A stretch of 56,781 bases of DNA from NCBI GenBank assembly GCA_030834095.1, contig JAURGA010000006.1, positions 1 to 56,781 on the forward strand, read 5' to 3'. This document shows, piece by piece, positions 1,644 through 56,781 of the stretch. The position numbers and the translations under genes were made by a program. Under the pieces are notes generated by a model, which was not told the origin of the DNA, searched no databases, and was given only the letters and a program-made list of their open reading frames with translations. The DNA comes from Candidatus Nanopelagicales bacterium (GTDB lineage: Bacteria; Actinomycetota; Actinomycetes; Nanopelagicales; Nanopelagicaceae). How positions within the stretch are numbered: position 1 is the stretch's first letter; every line of letters starts with the position of its first letter.

Positions 1644-4600
1644 GTGTCGGCAACTGGATCTAATACACCTGCTAATCATTACGGTGGATCTTTTGGGCCA
1701 AATGAATGGCTTGTCGATGAGATGTATGAAAAGTATTTAGCGGATCCAAATTCAGTAGATACAGCTTGGGTGGCATTTTTTGCTGACTACAAACCAAATG
1801 CAAATGGGACTGTTGCGCAAAATAATGGCAAAGTGATTCCAACTTTAGATAACGCACCACTGGGTGGAACTCCACCGCTGCCAAAGAAGGTAGTAGATCC
1901 AAGTGCGCTACAAATACCAGTGGCTGCAACACAGGTTTCAGCAACGCCAGTTGCGCAAGCAATGCCAGTTGCGCAAGCAACACCAGTTGCGCAAGCAACA
2001 CCAGTTGCGCAAGCAACACCAGTTGTTCCAGTTAAAGTCGCAACTCCTGCGGATCCGATAAACAAACCGATTCCAACTTTAGTAAGTCCAGGTGCATCTA
2101 CTCTCGAACCAATTCGTGGCGTGAGCGCTCGCGTTGTGCAGAGCATGGAAGCTTCATTGACAGTTCCAACTGCAACAAGTGTTCGCGCAATCCCAGCAAA
2201 ATTGATGATTGATAATCGCACAGTTATAAATAATCATTTAAAACGTAGCCGTGGTGGAAAAGTTTCATTCACTCACATAATTGGTTACGCAATGATCAGC
2301 GCAATTCGACAGATGCCAGAGATGAATGCCTTCTTCGGCGAATTGGATGGCAAGCCTGCTATTGGAAAGCCAGAACATATAAACCTTGGTATCGCAATCG
2401 ATTTAGCAAAACCAGATGGTTCACGCCAATTATTAGTGCCATCAATAAAGGGCTGTGAAGAACTTGATTTTGCTCAGTTCTGGGCTTCATACGAAGAGAC
2501 CGTTCGCAAAGCTCGCGGTGGTTCTCTGACCGTCGAAGACTTTGCTGGAACAACAGTTTCACTTACAAACCCAGGAACAATCGGCACAGTTCACTCAGTT
2601 CCACGATTGGTCCAAGGACAGGGCTTAATTCTTGGCGTTGGCGCAATGGATTATCCAGCGGAATTTCAAGGCACAAATGAAGATACCTTGGCCGAGCTAG
2701 CAATAAGTAAAGTCATTACTTTAACTAGCACTTATGATCACAGAATTATCCAAGGCGCACAATCTGGTGATTTCTTAAAACGAATTCATGAATTGTTGCT
2801 CGGCGAAAATGGTTTCTACGACGAGATTTTTGCAGCGCTACGTATTCCATACGTTCCAATCCGCTGGGTTGTTGATATGCGCTTTAGCAAGGAAGATCAA
2901 GTTGGCAAGACTGCTCGCGTTCAAGAGCTAATCAACGCGTATCGCACATCAGGCCACTTAATGGCAGATATTGATCCACTTAAATATATCCAGCGCTCAC
3001 ATCCAGATTTGGATGTTGTTACTCATGGACTTTCACTCTGGGATCTAGATCGCGAATTCGCAACTGGTGGCTTTGGTGGCAAACCGGTCATGAAATTACG
3101 CAGAATTCTTGGAACGCTCCGAGATTCATATTGCCGCACCATCGGCGTTGAATATATGTATATCGAGAACCCGCTAGAGCGTGCCTGGATTCAAGAGTAT
3201 GTGGAAGTTGGATACCCAAGAACTCCACGCGAAGAACAACTTCGAATCTTGCGAAAACTAAATAGTGCTGAGGCATTTGAAGCTTTCTTGCAGACAAAAT
3301 ATGTTGGACAGAAGCGCTTCTCACTTGAAGGTGGCGAATCTTTAATTCCATTACTGGATGCCATTATTTCAGCGGCTGCAGATCGCGGATTAGATGAAGT
3401 GTGCGTCGGAATGCCACACCGTGGCCGCCTAAACGTTCTTGCAAATATTGGTGGAAAGTCCTACGGCCAAATTTTCCAAGAGTTTGAGGGACATTACGCT
3501 GAGAATCAAGTCCATGGTTCTGGCGATGTTAAGTATCACCTCGGAACTGCAGGAACTTTCACTGCAGAATCAGGCGCAACCACCAAGATTTATCTCGCAG
3601 CAAACCCTTCTCACCTCGAGGCCGTAAACCCAGTATTAGAAGGCATTGCTCGCGCGAAGCAAGATAAGTTAAATGTGAAAGATATCTTCAGCGTTCTTCC
3701 AATCTTGATGCACGGAGATGCCGCATTTGCTGGCCAAGGTGTTGTTTCTGAAACGCTAAACCTCTCACAGTTAAAGGGTTATCGTGTTGGTGGAACAATT
3801 CACGTTGTCGTAAACAACCAAGTTGGCTTCACAACATCGCCACATGCAGCTAGATCTTCAACTTATTCGACAGACATTGCAAAGATGATTCAGGCGCCAG
3901 TCTTCCATGTAAATGCTGATGATCCAGAGAGTGTTGTTCGAGTTTCACGTATCGCATTCGAATATCGCCAAGCATTTAAGAAAGATGTTGTTATCGACAT
4001 GATTTGCTACCGTCGTCGTGGACATAATGAAGGCGACGAACCAAGTTTCACCCAACCAATGATGTATAAATTGATTGAGGCAAAGCGTTCAACTCGTAAG
4101 CTCTACACCGAAGCGCTAATTGGTCGCGGCGATATCACGGTTGAAGAAGCTGAAGAAGTATTACAAGATTATCAAGCACAACTTGATGCGGTTTATAACG
4201 CGGTTCATAATATTGAGCCAGAACATAATTCAAATATTGTTGTTCCAGTAGCGCCAGCACCAGAGACTGTAAACACATCAGTAGATGAGGCAACACTTAG
4301 AAAGATTGTTGCAACCCAGAGCGCGATTCCAGAAGGTTTCATTCCGCATGTAAAACTTGTACCACAACTTGCCAAGCGAGTCGAGATGCTTGATGAAGGA
4401 ACCGTTGACTGGTCAACTGGTGAATTACTTGCAATGGGATCACTTCTTTTGGAGGGCCACCCAATTCGACTTGCTGGTCAGGATGTTAAGCGCGGAACAT
4501 TCAGTAATCGTCACGCTGTAGTTGTTGATCAGAACAATGGGTCTGACTGGACACCGCTTCGCTCACTTATTTCAGATGAGAATCAATTCTTCGTATTTGA

Positions 4601-5417
4601 TTCCCTCTTGTCGGAATATGCCGCAATGGGCTTTGAATATGGCTATTCAGTAGAACGCGAAGATGCCCTCGTAATGTGGGAAGCGCAATTTGGTGACTTT
4701 GCCAATGGTGCACAAACCATCATTGATGAATTCATTTCATCCGCGCTGCAAAAATGGGGCGAGCGTTCATCACTAGTCCTTCTACTTCCACACGGATATG
4801 AAGGCCAAGGACCGGATCACTCATCTGGTCGCATCGAGCGCTACCTTGCACTCTGCGCAGAATTAAATATGACTGTTGCTCAACCATCTTCACCAGCTTC
4901 TTACTTCCACTTACTACGTTGGCACATGAAGAATCCAGCGCGTCGTCCGCTTATTGTCTTCGAACCAAAATCTATGTTGCGTTTGAAAGCGGCTGCATCT
5001 GGGTTACAAGATTTCACAACCGGAACATTCAAACCTTTGATTGAGGATCCAAATGTTGTTAACGCAAGCCGAGTTATTTTCTGTTCTGGAAAGGTTTATC
5101 ACGATCTAGTTGCAGAGCGTGAGAAGTTGGGCGAGAGCTCGACCACAATTATTCGACTAGAACAACTTTATCCATTCCCTGCCGAACAATTCTTAGCAGC
5201 TGCAGCTAAACACCCAAATGCGAATTTACTCTGGGTTCAAGATGAACCAGCAAATCAAGGACCTTGGCCATTTGTTGCTCTTACAACATCTGAAATACTC
5301 GAGGGTCGAACGCTTCGTCGGGTATCTCGTCGCGCAACTGCGAGCCCCGCAACTGGTTCACATCATTTGCATGAAGAAGAGCAGAAGGCGCTATTGATGG
5401 AAGCCTTCTCACGCTAG
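1644..5417 (+). CDS. kgd: Multifunctional 2-oxoglutarate decarboxylase/dehydrogenase (Kgd/OdhA type)
   Basis: TCA-cycle enzyme of 1257 residues, the fusion typical of Actinobacteria. A short N-terminal helix (FGPNEWLVDEMYEKYLADP) is the E1o signature. A Pro/Ala-rich linker holds hexapeptide repeats (about residues 90-135). An E2 succinyltransferase catalytic domain without lipoyl domain follows (about 145-400; TYDHRIIQGAQSGDF carries the catalytic His). The thiamine-diphosphate E1 domain comes next (MPHRGRLNVLANIG near 590, GDAAFAGQGVVSET near 691, NNQVGFTTSP). It decarboxylates 2-oxoglutarate and works with a separate E3 and a lipoylated E2. The GTG start follows AGGAG at normal spacing. The 3' end lies in a tandem repeat shared with sodX. 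Confidence 0.96.
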   Translation: MSATGSNTPANHYGGSFGPNEWLVDEMYEKYLADPNSVDTAWVAFFADYKPNANGTVAQNNGKVIPTLDNAPLGGTPPLPKKVVDPSALQIPVAATQVSATPVAQAMPVAQATPVAQATPVAQATPVVPVKVATPADPINKPIPTLVSPGASTLEPIRGVSARVVQSMEASLTVPTATSVRAIPAKLMIDNRTVINNHLKRSRGGKVSFTHIIGYAMISAIRQMPEMNAFFGELDGKPAIGKPEHINLGIAIDLAKPDGSRQLLVPSIKGCEELDFAQFWASYEETVRKARGGSLTVEDFAGTTVSLTNPGTIGTVHSVPRLVQGQGLILGVGAMDYPAEFQGTNEDTLAELAISKVITLTSTYDHRIIQGAQSGDFLKRIHELLLGENGFYDEIFAALRIPYVPIRWVVDMRFSKEDQVGKTARVQELINAYRTSGHLMADIDPLKYIQRSHPDLDVVTHGLSLWDLDREFATGGFGGKPVMKLRRILGTLRDSYCRTIGVEYMYIENPLERAWIQEYVEVGYPRTPREEQLRILRKLNSAEAFEAFLQTKYVGQKRFSLEGGESLIPLLDAIISAAADRGLDEVCVGMPHRGRLNVLANIGGKSYGQIFQEFEGHYAENQVHGSGDVKYHLGTAGTFTAESGATTKIYLAANPSHLEAVNPVLEGIARAKQDKLNVKDIFSVLPILMHGDAAFAGQGVVSETLNLSQLKGYRVGGTIHVVVNNQVGFTTSPHAARSSTYSTDIAKMIQAPVFHVNADDPESVVRVSRIAFEYRQAFKKDVVIDMICYRRRGHNEGDEPSFTQPMMYKLIEAKRSTRKLYTEALIGRGDITVEEAEEVLQDYQAQLDAVYNAVHNIEPEHNSNIVVPVAPAPETVNTSVDEATLRKIVATQSAIPEGFIPHVKLVPQLAKRVEMLDEGTVDWSTGELLAMGSLLLEGHPIRLAGQDVKRGTFSNRHAVVVDQNNGSDWTPLRSLISDENQFFVFDSLLSEYAAMGFEYGYSVEREDALVMWEAQFGDFANGAQTIIDEFISSALQKWGERSSLVLLLPHGYEGQGPDHSSGRIERYLALCAELNMTVAQPSSPASYFHLLRWHMKNPARRPLIVFEPKSMLRLKAAASGLQDFTTGTFKPLIEDPNVVNASRVIFCSGKVYHDLVAEREKLGESSTTIIRLEQLYPFPAEQFLAAAAKHPNANLLWVQDEPANQGPWPFVALTTSEILEGRTLRRVSRRATASPATGSHHLHEEEQKALLMEAFSR
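1950..2021 (+). repeat. Four 18-bp tandem repeats in the kgd linker
   Basis: Four head-to-tail copies of an 18-bp unit (GTTGCGCAAGCAAYRCCA) encode the hexapeptide VAQATP, with VAQAMP in the first copy. The repeat is in frame and lengthens the flexible linker between the N-terminal segment and the E2 domain. Copies 2-4 are identical, which implies recent expansion by slippage or unequal recombination. Confidence 0.9.
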
Positions 5418-50563: not shown

Positions 50564-50578
50564 TCACGACTAGTCACG
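50559..50578. repeat. 10-bp duplication carrying both stop codons of the MFS/Bax-inhibitor convergent pair
   Basis: Two copies of ACTAGTCACG in tandem. The first contains the plus-strand TAG of the MFS gene (50561-50563). The second contains the minus-strand TAG of the Bax-inhibitor gene (50572-50570). CTAG is its own reverse complement, so each copy offers TAG on both strands. Confidence 0.92.
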
Positions 50579-51358
50579 TCGAAGTATTGAGATTAACCGC
50601 AATACTTCAAGGTAAAGCCAGACGATTGTGACCATAAGCCCAAAGCCTGCACGCCATGATTGTTCTTGTGGCGCGCCACTAGCAATCATCTTTTCAATCT
50701 GATCAAAATCTAGAACCAAGAAGAATGTTGCAAGTGCTACACCAGCAACTGCAAGTAGGGGTCCGAGACCAGATAGTCCGTATAGACCCATTCCATTTCC
50801 AAGCCCAAAGAATGAACCAATCAAAGATCCAACTGCAAGAATCAAGTATCCGAATAGTGCACCAATCAAAACCCGAGTGAACTTTGGAGTTACGCGAATT
50901 CGCTTGCTCTTATATGCCCAAAGAACACCGGCAATTGCAGCGATTGTTGCAACAAGTGCTTGTCCAACAATTCCGTCATATGCAGTTTCATACATCTGGC
51001 TCAGTGTTCCGAGTGCCAAACCTTGAAGCGCTGCATAAGTAATTGTTAGGCCCGGCTTAATTTTCTGTGAAAATGAAAGATATAAACCAAGTCCCATTGC
51101 GCCAAGGAAACCAATTAGAAGTGCGCCGCCACCAAGTTGAAGTGTCCATGCAAGGGCACCAACACCAACTAATACTGCAAATAGAAGTGCAGTGCGAGCA
51201 ACAACATCATCAATTGTCATACGTCCTGTGCGAATTGAAGATGCAGCAGGCGCGTTATAAAGATCATTTAATTCTTCTGTTGATGGTGCGACAGCTGTTC
51301 CGCCACGATTTTCGAGAGCGGCATATCCGCGTTTGAAAACTGGGTTCGAACTTTGCAT
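50570..51358 (-). CDS. Bax inhibitor-1/YccA family membrane protein
   Basis: 262 residues: a hydrophilic N-terminus with RGGTAVAPSTEELNDLYNAP, then seven hydrophobic helices ending FFLVLDFDQIEKMIASGAPQ, followed by GFGLMVTIVWLYLEVLRLIS. The LDFDQIE box and the seven-helix layout define the actinobacterial Bax-inhibitor-1-like family, thought to act as proton or calcium leak channels. AGGAGAAATA precedes the ATG. A consensus SigH promoter and an 11-position hairpin lie in the leader, which suggests thiol-oxidative stress control. Confidence 0.9.
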   Translation of the reverse strand: MQSSNPVFKRGYAALENRGGTAVAPSTEELNDLYNAPAASSIRTGRMTIDDVVARTALLFAVLVGVGALAWTLQLGGGALLIGFLGAMGLGLYLSFSQKIKPGLTITYAALQGLALGTLSQMYETAYDGIVGQALVATIAAIAGVLWAYKSKRIRVTPKFTRVLIGALFGYLILAVGSLIGSFFGLGNGMGLYGLSGLGPLLAVAGVALATFFLVLDFDQIEKMIASGAPQEQSWRAGFGLMVTIVWLYLEVLRLISILRRD

Positions 51359-51456: not shown

Positions 51457-51540
51457 GCCAAGCCTAATCGTTGCGAAAATCCGCGCTCAAAACCTTAAAA
51501 ATCACTTAGAAACACTGAAGGAGCCTGATCGGTGAACTAC

Positions 51541-51777
51541 CTACCCAGCCCTTGCCCCGCTTCTTCTATTTACGAAGTAGGTATCTGAGGTTCTCTCTGT
51601 TCCGATGTATGAGGGATCAGTTGGATTGAGCGTCACAGATATGGTCACAAAACCTCTAGTAGATGGGCGGTAGGAGCAGGTAGCAATAATGTTTGGTGCG
51701 CTAGTGATCGTGGCGCTAACGCTGGTGGTTGAGATATTGATAGTTGTATCTGCTGACTGCGCTGCAAGGTAATTCAC
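51541..51777 (-). pseudogene. Chimeric 3' remnant of an Ig-like surface protein gene
   Basis: The 78-codon frame is a fusion. NYLAAQSADTTINISTTSVS matches the protein encoded at the right edge of the window, and SAPNIIATCSYRPSTRGFVT onward matches the C-terminus of the 587-residue protein at 53605-55368. About 40 residues normally between these parts (PGALTYRQAK through VIPxCKKK) are missing. There is no signal peptide, and the only start is a GTG inside a domain. It lies 28 bp beyond the stop of the next glycine-rich gene. A translated product is unlikely to be exported. Confidence 0.8.
51635..51702. repeat. 68-bp direct repeat, copy 1
   Basis: Identical over 68 bp to 53699-53766, with good similarity continuing to the gene ends on the left side. 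It is part of the C-terminal domain coding sequence. The two copies flank the 496-residue glycine-rich gene and the tRNA fragment. Confidence 0.9.
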
Positions 51778-51805
51778 TCATTGCAACGAGGCCTGCTGTT
51801 TAATA

Positions 51806-53296
51806 TTAGGTTTGCGACCTTGGAGCAGTCCGCCTTTGAACAAAGAATGTTTCTGCTACGGAGAATGACCCGACATCATTTGCTTCGGTTGGAACCAAAG
51901 TGGCTACTACAGAAATGCTTCCACGCTTTGATGGTTTAAACCTGCAGTTTGCAGTGTATTCATTAGTTGAATTCACCCTCTTATTTTTACAGCCAGGAAT
52001 GACTTTTCCCTTCACCCTAAATGTAACTTTTCCAGCTACAGAGGCAATTAAACTCAAATTTGAGGCTGTTCGATAGGCTAAATTTCCGAAGACTTGTGGC
52101 GTAGATGCTGAAGCGAACTCCAAATTTGAAGGAGTTAAGTATCGAAAGATTGCGATTCCAGAGCCTCCATCGCCTGAATTCTTCACATTACTTCTCACAT
52201 AACCGCCGCCACCACCACCGCCACTGCCCGCAACTCCATTCGTAGCGGATGCCGAGACTGTGTTCAGACCACCGGTTCCTCCACCACCTTTCCCACCCGC
52301 GGCTGGAGTCCTGGAAGTGGATGGGAAATAATAATCAGCACTAGCGTTACCACCACCTCCACCTCCAGCAAAAAAATAATTTCCGCTGCTAATTAAGTTG
52401 CTTGAAATACCTAAGGAATTGCCGATAGTTTGCGTCAATTCGGATTTCCAAAATCTCCCATCACCACCTACGCCAGCTGGAAAATTACCCCGTGTGTTGT
52501 TGTAGGTGGGAGACGAGCCACCGACACTTCCCGCGCCACCACCGCCACCAGCTACGTATACGTATTGTCTGGATCCATCCGTCAGAAAACCATTGGTTCC
52601 TTTACCTCCATTGTTTCCTTGACCCGCAATCCCTCGACCAACGGAATTATTACCAAAAACTCCTCCGCCCGATCCTCTCTGTACATTGTAACTATCACCC
52701 CCGCCCCCACCAGTTGCAGTAACTGTATTTGGATCGCTTACATCAGGACTCGCTCCAAAAGTCGTGTTACCACCGTGCTTACCAGCTGCAGTTCCAGTAG
52801 AACCCTTAGTTCCTTCCCCACCAAGACCTATAGATATATACAAATTTTCTAGCGCTGAAACATCAAAAGCATCCCCTGATAAAAAACCTCCAGCTCCACC
52901 ACCACCGGCATGCGGATAACCCCCACCGCCACCACCTGCAACCAGAAGATAATCAACAGATTGCAGCCCTGCTGGAATGCTCCAAATGCAAGGATCCGTA
53001 CTTTCAGAATCGCCCATAGTTTCAGAAAAAGTTTTAAAAGCGATAAATGTGTATGACCCTGAAGTTACAGAAGTCGACACACATCCAACATTAGCTTGTG
53101 TGGTTTGAAGTGAGGTATGTGTAAATAAAAATGATGATATTAAAGACAAAGATATAAATTTTAGAGATTGATTTCTTTTAATATTCGTTGACACTTCAGA
53201 GACTGATGACCTATGGGGTAGAAATAACTCCGTAATTTTACAAAACAGTGAGGTTTTCATCCATTCTTTCAATGGCTGACTATTACATTGTTTCAT
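51806..53296 (-). CDS. Secreted glycine-rich protein with C-terminal Ig-like/basic domain
   Basis: 496 residues (Met13 at 53260 is another possible start). A hydrophobic segment (LKFISLSLISSFLFTHTSLQ, then TTQA) looks like a signal peptide after a basic 45-residue extension. A first strand-rich part is followed by glycine-rich blocks (VDYLLVAGGGGGG, FFAGGGGGGN, GGGGGGGYV) of the type found in phage-tail and adhesin glycine-rich domains. The C-terminal ~75 residues (GKVTFRVKGKVIPGCKNKR, then CRFKPSKRGS) are a diverged copy of the domain shared with neighbours. Probably a surface or secreted adhesin (inference). Confidence 0.75.
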   Translation of the reverse strand: MKQCNSQPLKEWMKTSLFCKITELFLPHRSSVSEVSTNIKRNQSLKFISLSLISSFLFTHTSLQTTQANVGCVSTSVTSGSYTFIAFKTFSETMGDSESTDPCIWSIPAGLQSVDYLLVAGGGGGGYPHAGGGGAGGFLSGDAFDVSALENLYISIGLGGEGTKGSTGTAAGKHGGNTTFGASPDVSDPNTVTATGGGGGDSYNVQRGSGGGVFGNNSVGRGIAGQGNNGGKGTNGFLTDGSRQYVYVAGGGGGAGSVGGSSPTYNNTRGNFPAGVGGDGRFWKSELTQTIGNSLGISSNLISSGNYFFAGGGGGGNASADYYFPSTSRTPAAGGKGGGGTGGLNTVSASATNGVAGSGGGGGGGYVRSNVKNSGDGGSGIAIFRYLTPSNLEFASASTPQVFGNLAYRTASNLSLIASVAGKVTFRVKGKVIPGCKNKRVNSTNEYTANCRFKPSKRGSISVVATLVPTEANDVGSFSVAETFFVQRRTAPRSQT

Positions 53297-53604
53297 TCTA
53301 GGAGTGTAAGGCGTAATAAATCAGATCACACTATTGAGTGAGTAAGAACTAACGCCAAATAAATATTTGAGCGTGAACTAGTGAATATGGCTCCTAAGCG
53401 ATAGTTGCTTTGCTCGAGTGCAGGTGCGCTGGGCTGAAATGGATCGAGAATCAGGGCATCGCCTTCAAATCCCTCACGGTAGATGTGTATGCATTTATGT
53501 ATGCACTGCAAAATAAATGCTGATTTATTTTTACTATGTGCGAGACACGTTACGCACAACTGGTGCCCCCGGTCGGACTTGAACCGACGCTGGAAGGATT
53601 TTAC
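53297..53604. other. Gap between the two glycine-rich genes
   Basis: 308 bases. It contains the tRNA 3' fragment at 53561-53590 and an inverted-repeat-like stretch, GTATGCATTTATGTATGCAC (53489-53508). A 77-codon open frame on the minus strand (53326-53559) has no recognisable similarity or ribosome binding site, and I do not call it a gene. Confidence 0.5.
53561..53590 (-). pseudogene. tRNA 3' fragment (T-arm, acceptor 3' strand and CCA)
   Basis: On the minus strand, GTCGG-TTCAAGT-CCGAC is a perfect T-arm, followed by CGGGGGC, A and CCA. Nothing upstream resembles the D-arm or anticodon arm; coding sequence of the 587-residue protein begins instead (within about 15 bp). Such a 3' fragment is typical of an attachment-site copy left by integration into a tRNA gene. 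The matching 5' acceptor strand would be GCCCCCG, as in some tRNA-Arg. Confidence 0.7.
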
Positions 53605-55368
53605 CTACCCAGCCCTTCGCCCGCTTCGCTTGTTTGCGAAGTAGGTATCTGAGGTTCTCACCGTTCCGATATATGAGGGATCAGTTGGATTGAGTGTGAC
53701 AGATATGGTCACAAAACCTCTAGTAGATGGGCGGTAGGAGCAGGTAGCAATAATGTTTGGTGCGCTTCCAGTTGTTGATTTTTTCTTGCACCCAGGCAGT
53801 ATTTTGTTATTGACTCTAAAAGTTACCTTGCCGACTACGGATGCTGATGCGCTAATTAGCTTTGCCTGGCGAAAAACAAGTGAGCCATCGGCAATCGTGA
53901 TTGTGGCGGTGGTGGATCCTGCTGTGAAGGTAATAGTTGTTTGACTAGATGAGATTGCGCTGTAGTTATCATCAGGCGCCTTAGTTGCAGTAACCAGACA
54001 AGTGCCAGTGGCTGCGGCAGTTAGAACTCCTGAAGAGAGCGTGCAAGTTGTTGTTCCCTCTGCGTAGATATATGAAACTAAGCCGCCCCCGCTGCCACCA
54101 TTGGTAGCGAGAGTGATTGGAGTGCCAAATGATCCTGAAGTCGATGAAATGGATAGCGCGGATTGGCTAGCTTTACTAAAGGTAAAAGTTAGGGCGCTAC
54201 TAGTGGCCGCGTTGTAGTAATCATCTGCAGCAATGGTGGCTGCAACTAAACAGGTGCCAGATGTTGATGCTGAGATAGTTGCTGTTGCAGATGAGTTAGA
54301 GAGCGCGCAACTACTTGCGCTGCCCCCAGCCGCAATTGCATAGGTAATAGCACCGCTTCCAGTTGATCCAGAGGTGCTCATTGAAAGTGCTTGCGAATAT
54401 GGATAAGACTTAGAAGAAGTTCCAAGAGAGCTTAAGGTAATGGTTTGATTGTAATTTGGAATTGAATACATTATTTGGACTACGCCAGATCCACCCCATC
54501 TTGCAGCACCTCCGCCGCCACCGGTATTCGCAACACCATCAGCTCCGGTTGCCCTATCTGCTCCAGCGCTTTCATAGTTAGCGATTGCTATAGGTCTTCC
54601 TCCGCCACCAGTGCCACCGGTAGCACCATTGCTCCAACCTCCCCCACCTCCGCCATAAGTTCCAGTAAAAGTCCCACCTGAAAGTGAAATTCCGTTTGCA
54701 CCATTAACTCCTGTTGCAGCTGCACCGGCGCCACCGCCACCACCGGAACCACCCGGACCTCCAGCGTTTGCAAATCTTTCCCAGCCAGTCGTTGGATCAA
54801 TTAGGCCATCACCAGCGGCTCTAGCAGTGCCTAGATGACAAGCTCCTCCCGCAGATCCGCTAAATGATGAAGCGAGTTGATAATTAGTAGCACCACATCC
54901 ACCACCACCACCACCAGCTTTAATTATCAAACTATCTGATTGATTAGTTATAAACGAAGGTGAACCATTTTCGCCAAGGGTCCAATCATTTGTAGCTTTC
55001 CATCCATCAAGGCCACCAGCGCCTACCGTTACTTTGAGTTGAGTAATGCCCGAAAGTGATAACGAAGTTTTTCGATACTTAACTTCACCACCACCGCCAC
55101 CACCACCGAGCGAATTGAAACCACCGCCACCACCGCCTCCTACGACTAGTGCTTCTTCAATAGATGTAACACCAACTGGAATCGTAAAAGTTTGTCCGGT
55201 CTTAAAAGTGATTATGCATTTTCCCGTGACTGAAATATCGATTGTTACTGCACTTGAATTTGTATTAGCTAATCCAGAAGTGCAAGCAAGCCATTTCACC
55301 GAAGCTTGGGCCGGCAAGGTTTGGAATATAAAGAAAAAGCTCAAGAGAGCAATCAGGGGCTTTTTCAT
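53605..55368 (-). CDS. Secreted glycine-rich protein with Ig-like repeats and shared C-terminal domain
   Basis: 587 residues. Clear signal peptide (MKKPLIALLSFFFIFQTLPA then QASV). Glycine-rich region at about residues 75-300 (VVGGGGGGGFNSLGGGGGG). Two Ig-like/MBG-type repeats follow (FSKASQSALSISSTSGSFG; GTCLVAATIAADDYYNAATS and GTCLVTATKAPDDNYSAISS), each about 85 residues. The C-terminal domain is FRQAKLISASASVVGKVTF, then PGCKKKS, CSYRPSTRGF, and the basic tail RSGRRAG. Likely a cell-surface or released protein; the basic tail may be a sorting or anchoring signal (inference). Confidence 0.8.
   Translation of the reverse strand: MKKPLIALLSFFFIFQTLPAQASVKWLACTSGLANTNSSAVTIDISVTGKCIITFKTGQTFTIPVGVTSIEEALVVGGGGGGGFNSLGGGGGGGEVKYRKTSLSLSGITQLKVTVGAGGLDGWKATNDWTLGENGSPSFITNQSDSLIIKAGGGGGGCGATNYQLASSFSGSAGGACHLGTARAAGDGLIDPTTGWERFANAGGPGGSGGGGGAGAAATGVNGANGISLSGGTFTGTYGGGGGGWSNGATGGTGGGGRPIAIANYESAGADRATGADGVANTGGGGGAARWGGSGVVQIMYSIPNYNQTITLSSLGTSSKSYPYSQALSMSTSGSTGSGAITYAIAAGGSASSCALSNSSATATISASTSGTCLVAATIAADDYYNAATSSALTFTFSKASQSALSISSTSGSFGTPITLATNGGSGGGLVSYIYAEGTTTCTLSSGVLTAAATGTCLVTATKAPDDNYSAISSSQTTITFTAGSTTATITIADGSLVFRQAKLISASASVVGKVTFRVNNKILPGCKKKSTTGSAPNIIATCSYRPSTRGFVTISVTLNPTDPSYIGTVRTSDTYFANKRSGRRAG
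53699..53766. repeat. 68-bp direct repeat, copy 2
   Basis: Exact copy of 51635-51702, same orientation, about 2.06 kb away. Recombination between them would delete the 496-residue gene and the tRNA fragment. Confidence 0.9.
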
Positions 55369-55432
55369 AGCGCTAGTTTAGTTGCAGACCAAAATCTGCC
55401 AACCAGAGGGCACCCAGACGGGATCGACCCCT

Positions 55433-55948
55433 TTAATTCCTAGTTAAGTAGCCCCAAGCCAAGGTGGCGGCAACAGCCACCCAAATTTGATACGGAACAA
55501 GTAGAAGTCCCATTATCAGCGAAGCTTTGAACGTTAGGTAAAGAACAGGAATTGTAAGAAGAGTTGCCAATACCAATGCAATCGTGGCCAGAGCGAAGTT
55601 GTGTGGGACATAGAACTGATAAGCCCAAGTAAGTGCTGCGGCAATACTTAGCCCGAAGAAAACCAGCCAGGAGATATTCTGCAATCGAGTTAAAGACTTT
55701 GATACTTGATATGAAGCAACACCTAAAACTATAAAGTTGTAAGGCCAGATAATTCCAATAAAGGCACTGGGTGGCTGCCACGGCGGTCTATTAAGAGTTG
55801 AATACCAACCTGGTGAAGAAGAAACCCAAATTCCTGAACCGAAGGCATAGATAAAAACAAAAAGAATTCCTAACGCCGCCATAACCATTCTTAAGTCCAC
55901 AACTGGACTGTAGCGAAGTTTGCTAGGGGTAGGGCCAACACCTGCCAA
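55433..55948 (-). CDS. tspO: TspO/MBR family protein
   Basis: 171 residues with five transmembrane helices. Diagnostic TspO motifs: SPGWYSTLNRPPWQPPSAFI (WYxxLxxPPWxPP), IIWPYNFIVLGVASYQ, LTWAYQFYV, and PYQIWVAVAATLAWGYL. It binds porphyrins and sterol-like ligands and acts in stress response or tetrapyrrole handling. The N-terminal 20 residues (MAGVGPTPSKLRYSP) may be dispensable; Met21 is an alternative start. It starts 5 bp downstream of the surface-protein stop, so it may be co-transcribed with it. Confidence 0.92.
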   Translation of the reverse strand: MAGVGPTPSKLRYSPVVDLRMVMAALGILFVFIYAFGSGIWVSSSPGWYSTLNRPPWQPPSAFIGIIWPYNFIVLGVASYQVSKSLTRLQNISWLVFFGLSIAAALTWAYQFYVPHNFALATIALVLATLLTIPVLYLTFKASLIMGLLLVPYQIWVAVAATLAWGYLTRN

Positions 55949-55952
55949 CTAA

Positions 55953-56781
55953 CTACCCGCCTCTTGCCCCACTCCTATTACCCACGAAGTAGCGGCTAGT
56001 TGTTGTAGTAGTTCCGATATATGAAGGATCTGTGGGATTTAGCGTTGCAGTTATAACCACATAGCCTCTAGTAGAAGGTCGGTAGGAGCAGATAACAGTT
56101 GCGCTTGCTGCAACTACCTTCTTCTTGCATCTTGGTATTACCTTGCCATTGACCTTAAAGGTGACCTTGCCAGCAACAGATGAGCTTGCGCTAACGCTCT
56201 TTGCTTGGCGGTAGGTAAGTGCGCCTGGCTCTAGAGTGATTGTGGCGCTAACGCTGGTGGTTGAGATATTGATAGTTGTATCTGCTGACTGCGCTGCTAG
56301 GTAATTGTCATTCTCTGCAAGGCTAGACCTAATGACACAGCTACCAGCTGCAGTGGGAGTAAGAGTGGAGCCGACGACGGTGCAATCACCTGAAACCTTT
56401 GTGTAGGTAAAGGTGCCACCCGTTGAGCCACCAGTTGAGGTAAGTGAAAGATCACTGCCAAAGCTAACGGAGGTACTAGATGTAATGGTGATGTTTGTTT
56501 GGGTTGCCTTCACCGTTGAATTATTAGTAACGCTCTGTGAAGTTAGAGATGCGGCATCATTACCAACTAGATCCTGGATAGCATTTGCATCATCGCCAGC
56601 TGTTGGATCACTATAGGAAACTGTTACTACTCTGCCGATATTGATCGTTGATCCAAGTGCGAGGGTAACGGCGGAACCAGATGCGGTAGCTGATGAGACG
56701 GCGACTGCACTTCCAGCGTCCAAGACTGTAAAGGCTGAGGTTGGAGCGGTAGTCGCAGAGAGCGCCTCGTTATAGGTCAGA
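55953..56781 (-). CDS. Large surface protein with SwmB-type and Ig-like repeats, C-terminal part (runs off right edge)
   Basis: At least 275 residues; the frame stays open to the window edge, so the start lies outside. The first visible part (LTYNEALSATTAPTSAFTVL, with VVTVSYSDPTAGDDANAIQD and LVGNDAASLTSQ) is a SwmB-type repeat of bacterial adhesins. An Ig-like repeat (GSCVIRSSLAENDNYLAAQS) follows, then the shared C-terminal domain (YRQAKSVSASSSVAGKVTF, PRCKKK, CSYRPSTRGY) and a tail ending RSGARGG. Probably a large cell-surface adhesin. Confidence 0.85.
   Translation of the reverse strand, partial: LTYNEALSATTAPTSAFTVLDAGSAVAVSSATASGSAVTLALGSTINIGRVVTVSYSDPTAGDDANAIQDLVGNDAASLTSQSVTNNSTVKATQTNITITSSTSVSFGSDLSLTSTGGSTGGTFTYTKVSGDCTVVGSTLTPTAAGSCVIRSSLAENDNYLAAQSADTTINISTTSVSATITLEPGALTYRQAKSVSASSSVAGKVTFKVNGKVIPRCKKKVVAASATVICSYRPSTRGYVVITATLNPTDPSYIGTTTTTSRYFVGNRSGARGG

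Follow-up and report, generated by a model that had tools for sequence, protein, structure and literature searches.

Why do several putative secreted proteins that otherwise differ end in the same short module at one edge of a bacterial contig, and what might this shared end do? The question is raised by a stretch of 56,781 nucleotides from a Candidatus Nanopelagicales bacterium (contig JAURGA010000006.1, positions 1 to 56,781), hereafter the window, which is contig C42 of a source genome of 1.36 Mb in 53 contigs (G000). From its sequence and distribution, we judge it just probable that the module, about 95 residues long, serves certain freshwater actinobacteria as a docking (sorting) domain at the C-terminus of a protein family on their surface, probably adhesins. 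The domain is found mostly where a fibre-like secretion operon is present; therefore, it is probably a tag by which this machinery puts proteins on the surface. The copies of the module in the window are carried by the following genes.

51541-51777, minus strand: remnant of 78 codons with a partial module at 51544-51711, the middle of the module missing.
51806-53194, minus strand: module gene 1, 462 residues from a GTG at 53194, with Gly_rich_2, a C-terminal module at 51815-52108 and the tail RRTAPRSQT.
53605-55368, minus strand: module gene 2, 587 residues, with a signal-peptide-like start, Gly_rich_2, a C-terminal module at 53608-53907 and the tail KRSGRRAG.
55953-56780, minus strand: module gene 3, with SWM_repeat, a middle part, a C-terminal module at 55956-56246 and the tail NRSGARGG; its 5′ end is cut by the contig end.

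The GTG at 53194 gives gene 1 a signal-peptide-like start; an ATG at 53296 is also possible. An earlier note on this DNA had described three intact proteins and one remnant sharing a C-terminal module. The shared module and the remnant stand, but only two of the genes are complete, the third being cut by the contig end. The N-terminal parts do differ, as the note had said, with Gly_rich_2 in genes 1 and 2 and SWM_repeat in gene 3. In total, G000 contains eight module matches; outside the window, two lie on contig C28 and one each on C10 and C23, and more occur in related genomes. A profile built from 26 modules (A2) was run against 296 genomes of the window's family (E ≤ 0.001) and matched 108 of them, leaving 188 with none, so that the wider search proposed earlier did recover the module beyond the window. 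The number of copies per genome is at least 17 in G005 and G016, 13 in G183 and G238, and 6-11 in eight others. The highest counts per genome (17 for modules and 14 for family B, a neighbouring family described below) are lower bounds, and weak single matches can be a protein of approximately 320-350 residues with a related internal domain (14 loci read).

For close reading, 120 stretches around A2 matches were fetched. They contain 157 distinct proteins, 155 of which retain the 3′ end; the match lies within three residues of the stop codon in 150 of these, 4-10 residues from it in four, and far from it in one (L180). A second profile (A4) ends before the tail and is thus blind to it. With this profile, the domain is C-terminal in 154/155 proteins of the same loci, which had themselves been fetched with tail-including profiles. 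An RxxxR motif occurs within the last nine residues of 143 of the 154 C-terminal modules, compared with 7 of 543 neighbouring open reading frames (ORFs), a set that includes some truncated where a stretch ends, and none of 69 proteins of family B. Given these A4 results, chance is excluded as the source of the shared end. The tail motif is R-[ST]-x-x-R, and the 119 modules ending exactly in RxxxR have the terminal consensus [VI]-x-x-R-[TS]-[GTN]-x-R. In line with the proposal that these are exported proteins, a signal-peptide-like start, judged by a home-made hydrophobicity rule, was present in 121 of the 130 module proteins with a 5′ end.

The conserved cysteine pair noticed in the window proved to be strict: each of the 147 full-length modules contains two cysteines and no more, always in the same two alignment columns. 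The first arginine of the tail is likewise present in 147/147, and the last is in place in 90%. Such uniformity might have another origin, namely that the module is a folding or protease-resistant cap without a sorting role, kept alike by recombination between paralogous 3′ ends. This would agree with the remnant, a chimera of two paralogues in which 72 bases (the upstream part) are 97% like gene 3 and 162 bases (the module end) are 93% like gene 2, and with contigs C10 and C28, where the C10 match and one C28 match start at contig ends, inside near-identical module ends. However, 23 of the 25 other A2 modules are only 24-45% identical to the first module, yet the cysteines and the first arginine are invariant, which indicates selection on the protein. 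The cap explanation is therefore clearly unlikely.

The earlier expectation that the module is always C-terminal holds for the tailed version and fails for related domains. The A4 profile gave five internal domain matches, and tail-less relatives occur inside other proteins: in the secreted-looking protein of approximately 320-350 residues, read at 14 loci, in giant ORFs, and, outside the class, in a protein with four repeats. At L208-L212 and L214-L218, the relative lies near the N-terminus of the secreted-looking protein. L180:4292-15505 (G309) is a 3738-codon ORF with one internal module-like domain that lacks the RxxxR end. Outside the window's family, matches are few: 23 genomes matched in a class sample of 394, 19 of them belonging to the family, and four in a phylum sample of 396, one of them in the family. 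None of the outside-family matches read, a set that leaves out those of G347 and G374, has an RxxxR end. In our view, the tailed form is derived from a common immunoglobulin (Ig)-like domain; so far, it has been seen in the window's family only.

The domain had been called undescribed, which its fold contradicts. Taken by themselves, the three modules of the window had no meaningful match in Pfam; among the 26 modules of the profile, six matched Pfam Big_3_5 at E ≤ 10 (best 1.7e-6) and two matched Big_7. An AlphaFold2 model of the gene-2 module, based on 21 sequences, has seven strands and a mean predicted local distance difference test (pLDDT) score of 86.7. When this model was compared using Foldseek and VIA-align, mostly Ig and FN3 domains were returned, with a best Z of 10.6 and many ties. 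Judging from sequence and model, the module is a divergent bacterial Ig-like domain, nearest to Pfam Big_3_5. It shares with Big_3_5 the sequence similarity seen in 6/26 members and a predicted Ig-like β-sandwich, and differs in being tailed, Cys-paired and C-terminal; the other 20/26 members have no match to the Big_3_5 model. The last ten-residue block of the model has a pLDDT of 65. Being less confident than the rest, the tail is probably mobile. Cyanovirin-N, the only sequence match among solved structures, had an E-value of 0.6 and was ignored.

A functional parallel is offered by the C-terminal domain of the type IX secretion system (T9SS) of Bacteroidota. According to the available part of one report (PMC4804311), many surface proteins carry this domain, which is Ig-like and seven-stranded and whose last 22 residues contain the signal. 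The likeness to the module thus lies in a C-terminal seven-stranded Ig-like domain with conserved terminal residues, and T9SS cargo is, in the portion of the literature available, attached to a glycan carrier. The module differs in its phylum, its strict cysteine pair, its RxxxR end, and its SipW-like partner operon, and removal of the domain is known only for T9SS. No T9SS domain stood out among the best 50 structural matches listed, where Ig/FN3-like domains tie and such an absence carries no weight, and none of the three window proteins matched the NCBIfam models of T9SS sorting domains at E ≤ 1. The module may work like the T9SS C-terminal domain, which serves as a working analogy; relatedness of the two is unsupported.

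What precedes the module is diverse. In 117 N-terminal parts scanned, 21 Pfam families were found, including Gly_rich_2 (45), Laminin_G_3 (33), fn3 (11), Flg_new (7), LRR_5 (3), PA14 (2), and Cadherin (2). The module caps otherwise unrelated, predicted secreted proteins. One further protein, at L018 and outside the scanned set, is subtilase-like by eye. A common role as a signal, with attachment or export through the module, is the best inference that these sequences allow. A C-terminal position and a basic end are also what a sortase or exosortase signal of the LPXTG or PEP-CTERM type would have. Nevertheless, the consensus of the 147 modules contains neither LPXTG nor a hydrophobic segment before the tail, as read without a membrane predictor. 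Sortase occurs in 3 of the 26 genomes tested and 2 of the 13 module-rich ones, with no match in G000, and exosortase in 0 of 26, making a signal of this kind very improbable.

The likely partner of the module is a conserved operon outside the window. Neighbours of module genes are mostly housekeeping genes by eye, with one recurrent family, B. Its 17 members are spread over 16 of 121 loci, and 14 of them have a module gene no more than 110 bp away. In family-B proteins, an N-terminal stretch is followed by a hydrophobic segment and by a domain that contains EFGQG and two cysteines; such proteins occur in 57/296 genomes. Where B genes are small and in tandem, they mark the conserved operon, which has the order c0 - B - B (- B) - c2 - c1 - c6 - c3 - c4, with c9 and c8 beside it in many genomes. 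In G000 it is located as follows.

L254:2450-11853 (contig C28): putative partner operon, coding for a signal peptidase of the SipW type, EFGQG subunits in tandem, a large membrane protein, a collagen-like protein, and a Wzy_C ligase.

The signal peptidase, c2, is of the SipW/archaeal type and belongs to TIGR02228. Its bit scores are 63.5 for G000 and 64.8 for G007, above the cut-off of 51.85, and 48.7, below it, for the G298 copy; c2 has a weaker match to SipW and invariant Ser and His residues. The large membrane protein is c1, the collagen-like protein is c6, and c5 matches Wzy_C at 1.2e-10. No convincing family was found for c0, c1, c3, c4, c8, or c9 in Pfam (all six) or NCBIfam (c0, c1, and c9). 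A TIGR02228-type signal peptidase beside tandem small secreted subunits resembles the SipW-dependent fibres of TasA/CalY. In contrast to these, the family-B proteins scanned have no TasA/CalY match in Pfam or NCBIfam, and the operon adds the c1, collagen-like, and Wzy_C genes. Sequence searches found no solved relatives of family B, and its structure model is too poor to judge a TasA-like fold (pLDDT 49.9). A match of a family-B protein to midcut_by_XrtH (E 0.038) was rejected, being far below the cut-off of that model and from genomes without exosortase.

The module is multiplied only in genomes that also have this conserved operon: all 13 genomes with at least six module matches have c1 and B matches, the c1 of G012 being weak (4e-12 over 115 positions) and that of G005 a fragment. 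Overall, c1 was found in 41/296 genomes, in one copy each except for two fragments in G256, and B is present in 41/41 of them. A strong module match was set at E ≤ 1e-18, a chosen threshold just below which the C-terminal modules of G161 and G275 fall. By this measure, c1 is present in 24/28 genomes with a strong match versus 17/268 others. Among genomes at least 90% complete, the figures are 8/9 and 4/99, and within the genus 9/11 and 0/16. On a tree of the protein encoded at window positions 1647-5414 (24 genomes), the module is patchy, with six changes. Indeed, G020, 83% complete, has no module match, and its protein is 98% identical to the product of window 1647-5414.

Further linkage is seen in the tail, whose type was labelled per genome. 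On a c1 tree of 32 genomes, all 13 RxxxR genomes fall in one clade (support 100). On a tree of 41 genomes, which includes three sequences under half length, 16/17 do so (support 95), and the clade spans genera g1, g24, and g27. Tail type changes twice on the larger tree, as few as in 0/500 shuffles. The RTSR-tailed pair G297 and G298 forms a c1 clade of its own, and genomes with other ends (PRT, PRG, PRA, TER, QRR, TARP, and RRS) group with two that lack ends; in six of these seven other-ended genomes, a module gene stands at the operon end. The Wzy_C gene c5 adjoins c0 in 6/6 RxxxR operons for which this flank is available versus 0/12 others, with a c5 profile that was made from RxxxR operons and could miss divergent c5. 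A tailed module was not recognised in fifteen c1 genomes, many of them incomplete, and in G185 and G195 a tail-less domain lies in a large ORF beside the operon. In these trees, and across host genera, the type of tail goes for the most part with the c1 lineage.

This pattern also bears on the alternative of direct binding, in which the basic tail would attach the module to an acidic wall polymer or to the surface of the membrane, and the operon would be no more than a second adhesion trait of the same species. Such binding would fit with the basic character of the tail, which has the lowest confidence in the model, and with the fact that non-covalent wall-binding C-terminal domains are common. 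It does not account well for the conservation of two arginines at fixed spacing rather than general charge, for a tail type that largely tracks the c1 lineage, or for a c1 match in every one of the 13 module-rich genomes. We consider direct binding fairly unlikely.

Several observations weigh against a docking role tied to the operon. Strong module matches occur without c1 in G009 (99% complete), G017, G274, and G296; conversely, 17 c1 genomes lack a strong module match, and 16 genomes have B without c1. Four independent within-genus pairs differ in c1, with the module concordant, which are too few (p = 0.125). The loci used to build the B and c1 profiles lie close to modules or come from module-rich genomes, and the co-occurrence could reflect a shared adhesive lifestyle or co-transfer. 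Finally, G012 has ten RxxxR modules, yet its c1 is very divergent and is placed next to G187 on a long branch, outside the RxxxR clade. A divergent version of the operon, with c2, a c1-like 566-codon ORF, and a collagen-like gene, is present at L345 (G012:C5).

Under the docking interpretation, module proteins would cross the membrane by Sec, and the Ig-like domain would then fold with its predicted disulfide; both steps are suggested by the sequence. The exposed arginine tail would be recognised by a surface component made by the operon, a step suggested by co-occurrence and co-variation. Candidates for this component are c1, through its outer domain, family-B proteins, the collagen-like c6, and the Wzy_C enzyme c5. 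The recognising component might hold the protein on the cell or fibre, covalently or otherwise, leaving the variable N-terminal parts to bind particles, glycans, or neighbours. A more far-reaching version is possible, though we hold it rather doubtful: a new one-membrane sorting system, the counterpart of type IX secretion, in which the Ig-like domain and RxxxR end form an address label read by a dedicated operon, c1 and a Wzy_C-type ligase fix the cargo to a glycan or a SipW-type fibre, and cargo genes circulate as single-gene cassettes via tRNA sites, so that cells would exchange surface proteins under a constant label.

Few surface proteins are expected in lake bacteria with small genomes. 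The module-rich members of the window's genus have genomes of 1.3-1.5 Mb, so that a single class of tagged surface proteins with no fewer than 17 matches in G005 and in G016 is unexpectedly large. A defined label, a candidate operon, and a tail type that largely tracks the operon lineage make surface display testable, including in encounters with phages and grazers. No description of the module or the operon was found in the literature, as covered by open-access full texts. In the main text of a paper on the secreted proteome of such bacteria (PMC11039613), a word search returned no instance of Ig-like, adhesin, fimbri, pili, or C-terminal.

How the genes came to this place is suggested by three further features of the window.

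50570-51358, minus strand: conserved neighbour of 262 residues, used as locus marker.
53561-53603, minus strand: partial copy of a transfer RNA (tRNA) 3′ end, tRNA-Leu(taa), 43 bp, directly beside the gene 2 stop codon.
55433-55948, minus strand: small gene belonging to the empty site, read by eye as a membrane protein, which here separates module gene 2 from module gene 3.

The relatives G014 and G020 have an empty locus, where the neighbour is directly followed by the gene at 55433, without module genes. At the junctions, no more than 75 bp in G014 and 26 bp in G020 separate the sequence corresponding to window 51511-51513 from that corresponding to 55433 and 55422, respectively. In G014, a tRNA follows the empty locus, and the 3′ end of tRNA-Leu(taa) recurs at window 53561-53603; this 43-bp copy is a probable footprint of integration at a tRNA. 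Window 51512-55432 is thus seen as a tRNA-associated insertion site. Comparable arrangements occur elsewhere. In G007 (L117), a single module gene is flanked by tRNA-Tyr and by 52 bp that repeat the 3′ end of this tRNA; in G004 (L272), a single B gene is flanked by tRNA-Leu and a 53-bp repeat of its 3′ end. Across 146 stretches, 12 partial tRNA copies were found, nine of them within 250 bp of a module or B gene, a zone that makes up 8.9% of the remaining sequence (p 6e-8, with copies taken as independent).

Similar cassettes or islands at tRNA genes have been described in Actinomarinales (PMC7771536), and tRNA-Lys repeats mark islands in Methylopumilus (PMC10872708), as far as the available parts of these reports go. 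To that extent, the module cassettes resemble such additive flexible islands in being small and marked by partial-tRNA direct repeats. The features of additive tRNA islands are found here as flanking repeats of tRNA 3′ ends (L117, L272, and the window copy) and as the empty sites in G014 and G020. The module cassettes differ in carrying single genes that belong to one surface-protein system and in using several tRNAs. Mobility by way of such single-gene units at the 3′ ends of tRNAs is of a known kind. A phage or plasmid origin was rejected, as the module had no tblastn match in phage or plasmid records. The N-terminal part of gene 2 likewise had no tblastn match in phage records, and no module relative was confirmed in viral contigs.

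Behind tRNA-Lys in G016 (L082) are two tandem units, the first of which holds another secreted-looking protein. This protein (L082:601-2178), of 525 residues and without the module, stands in the unit next to a module-gene cassette; the cassettes are therefore not limited to module genes. At the window's locus in G022, a 386-residue ORF (L318:7615-8772) resembles a tyrosine integrase by eye and is followed by unrelated genes.

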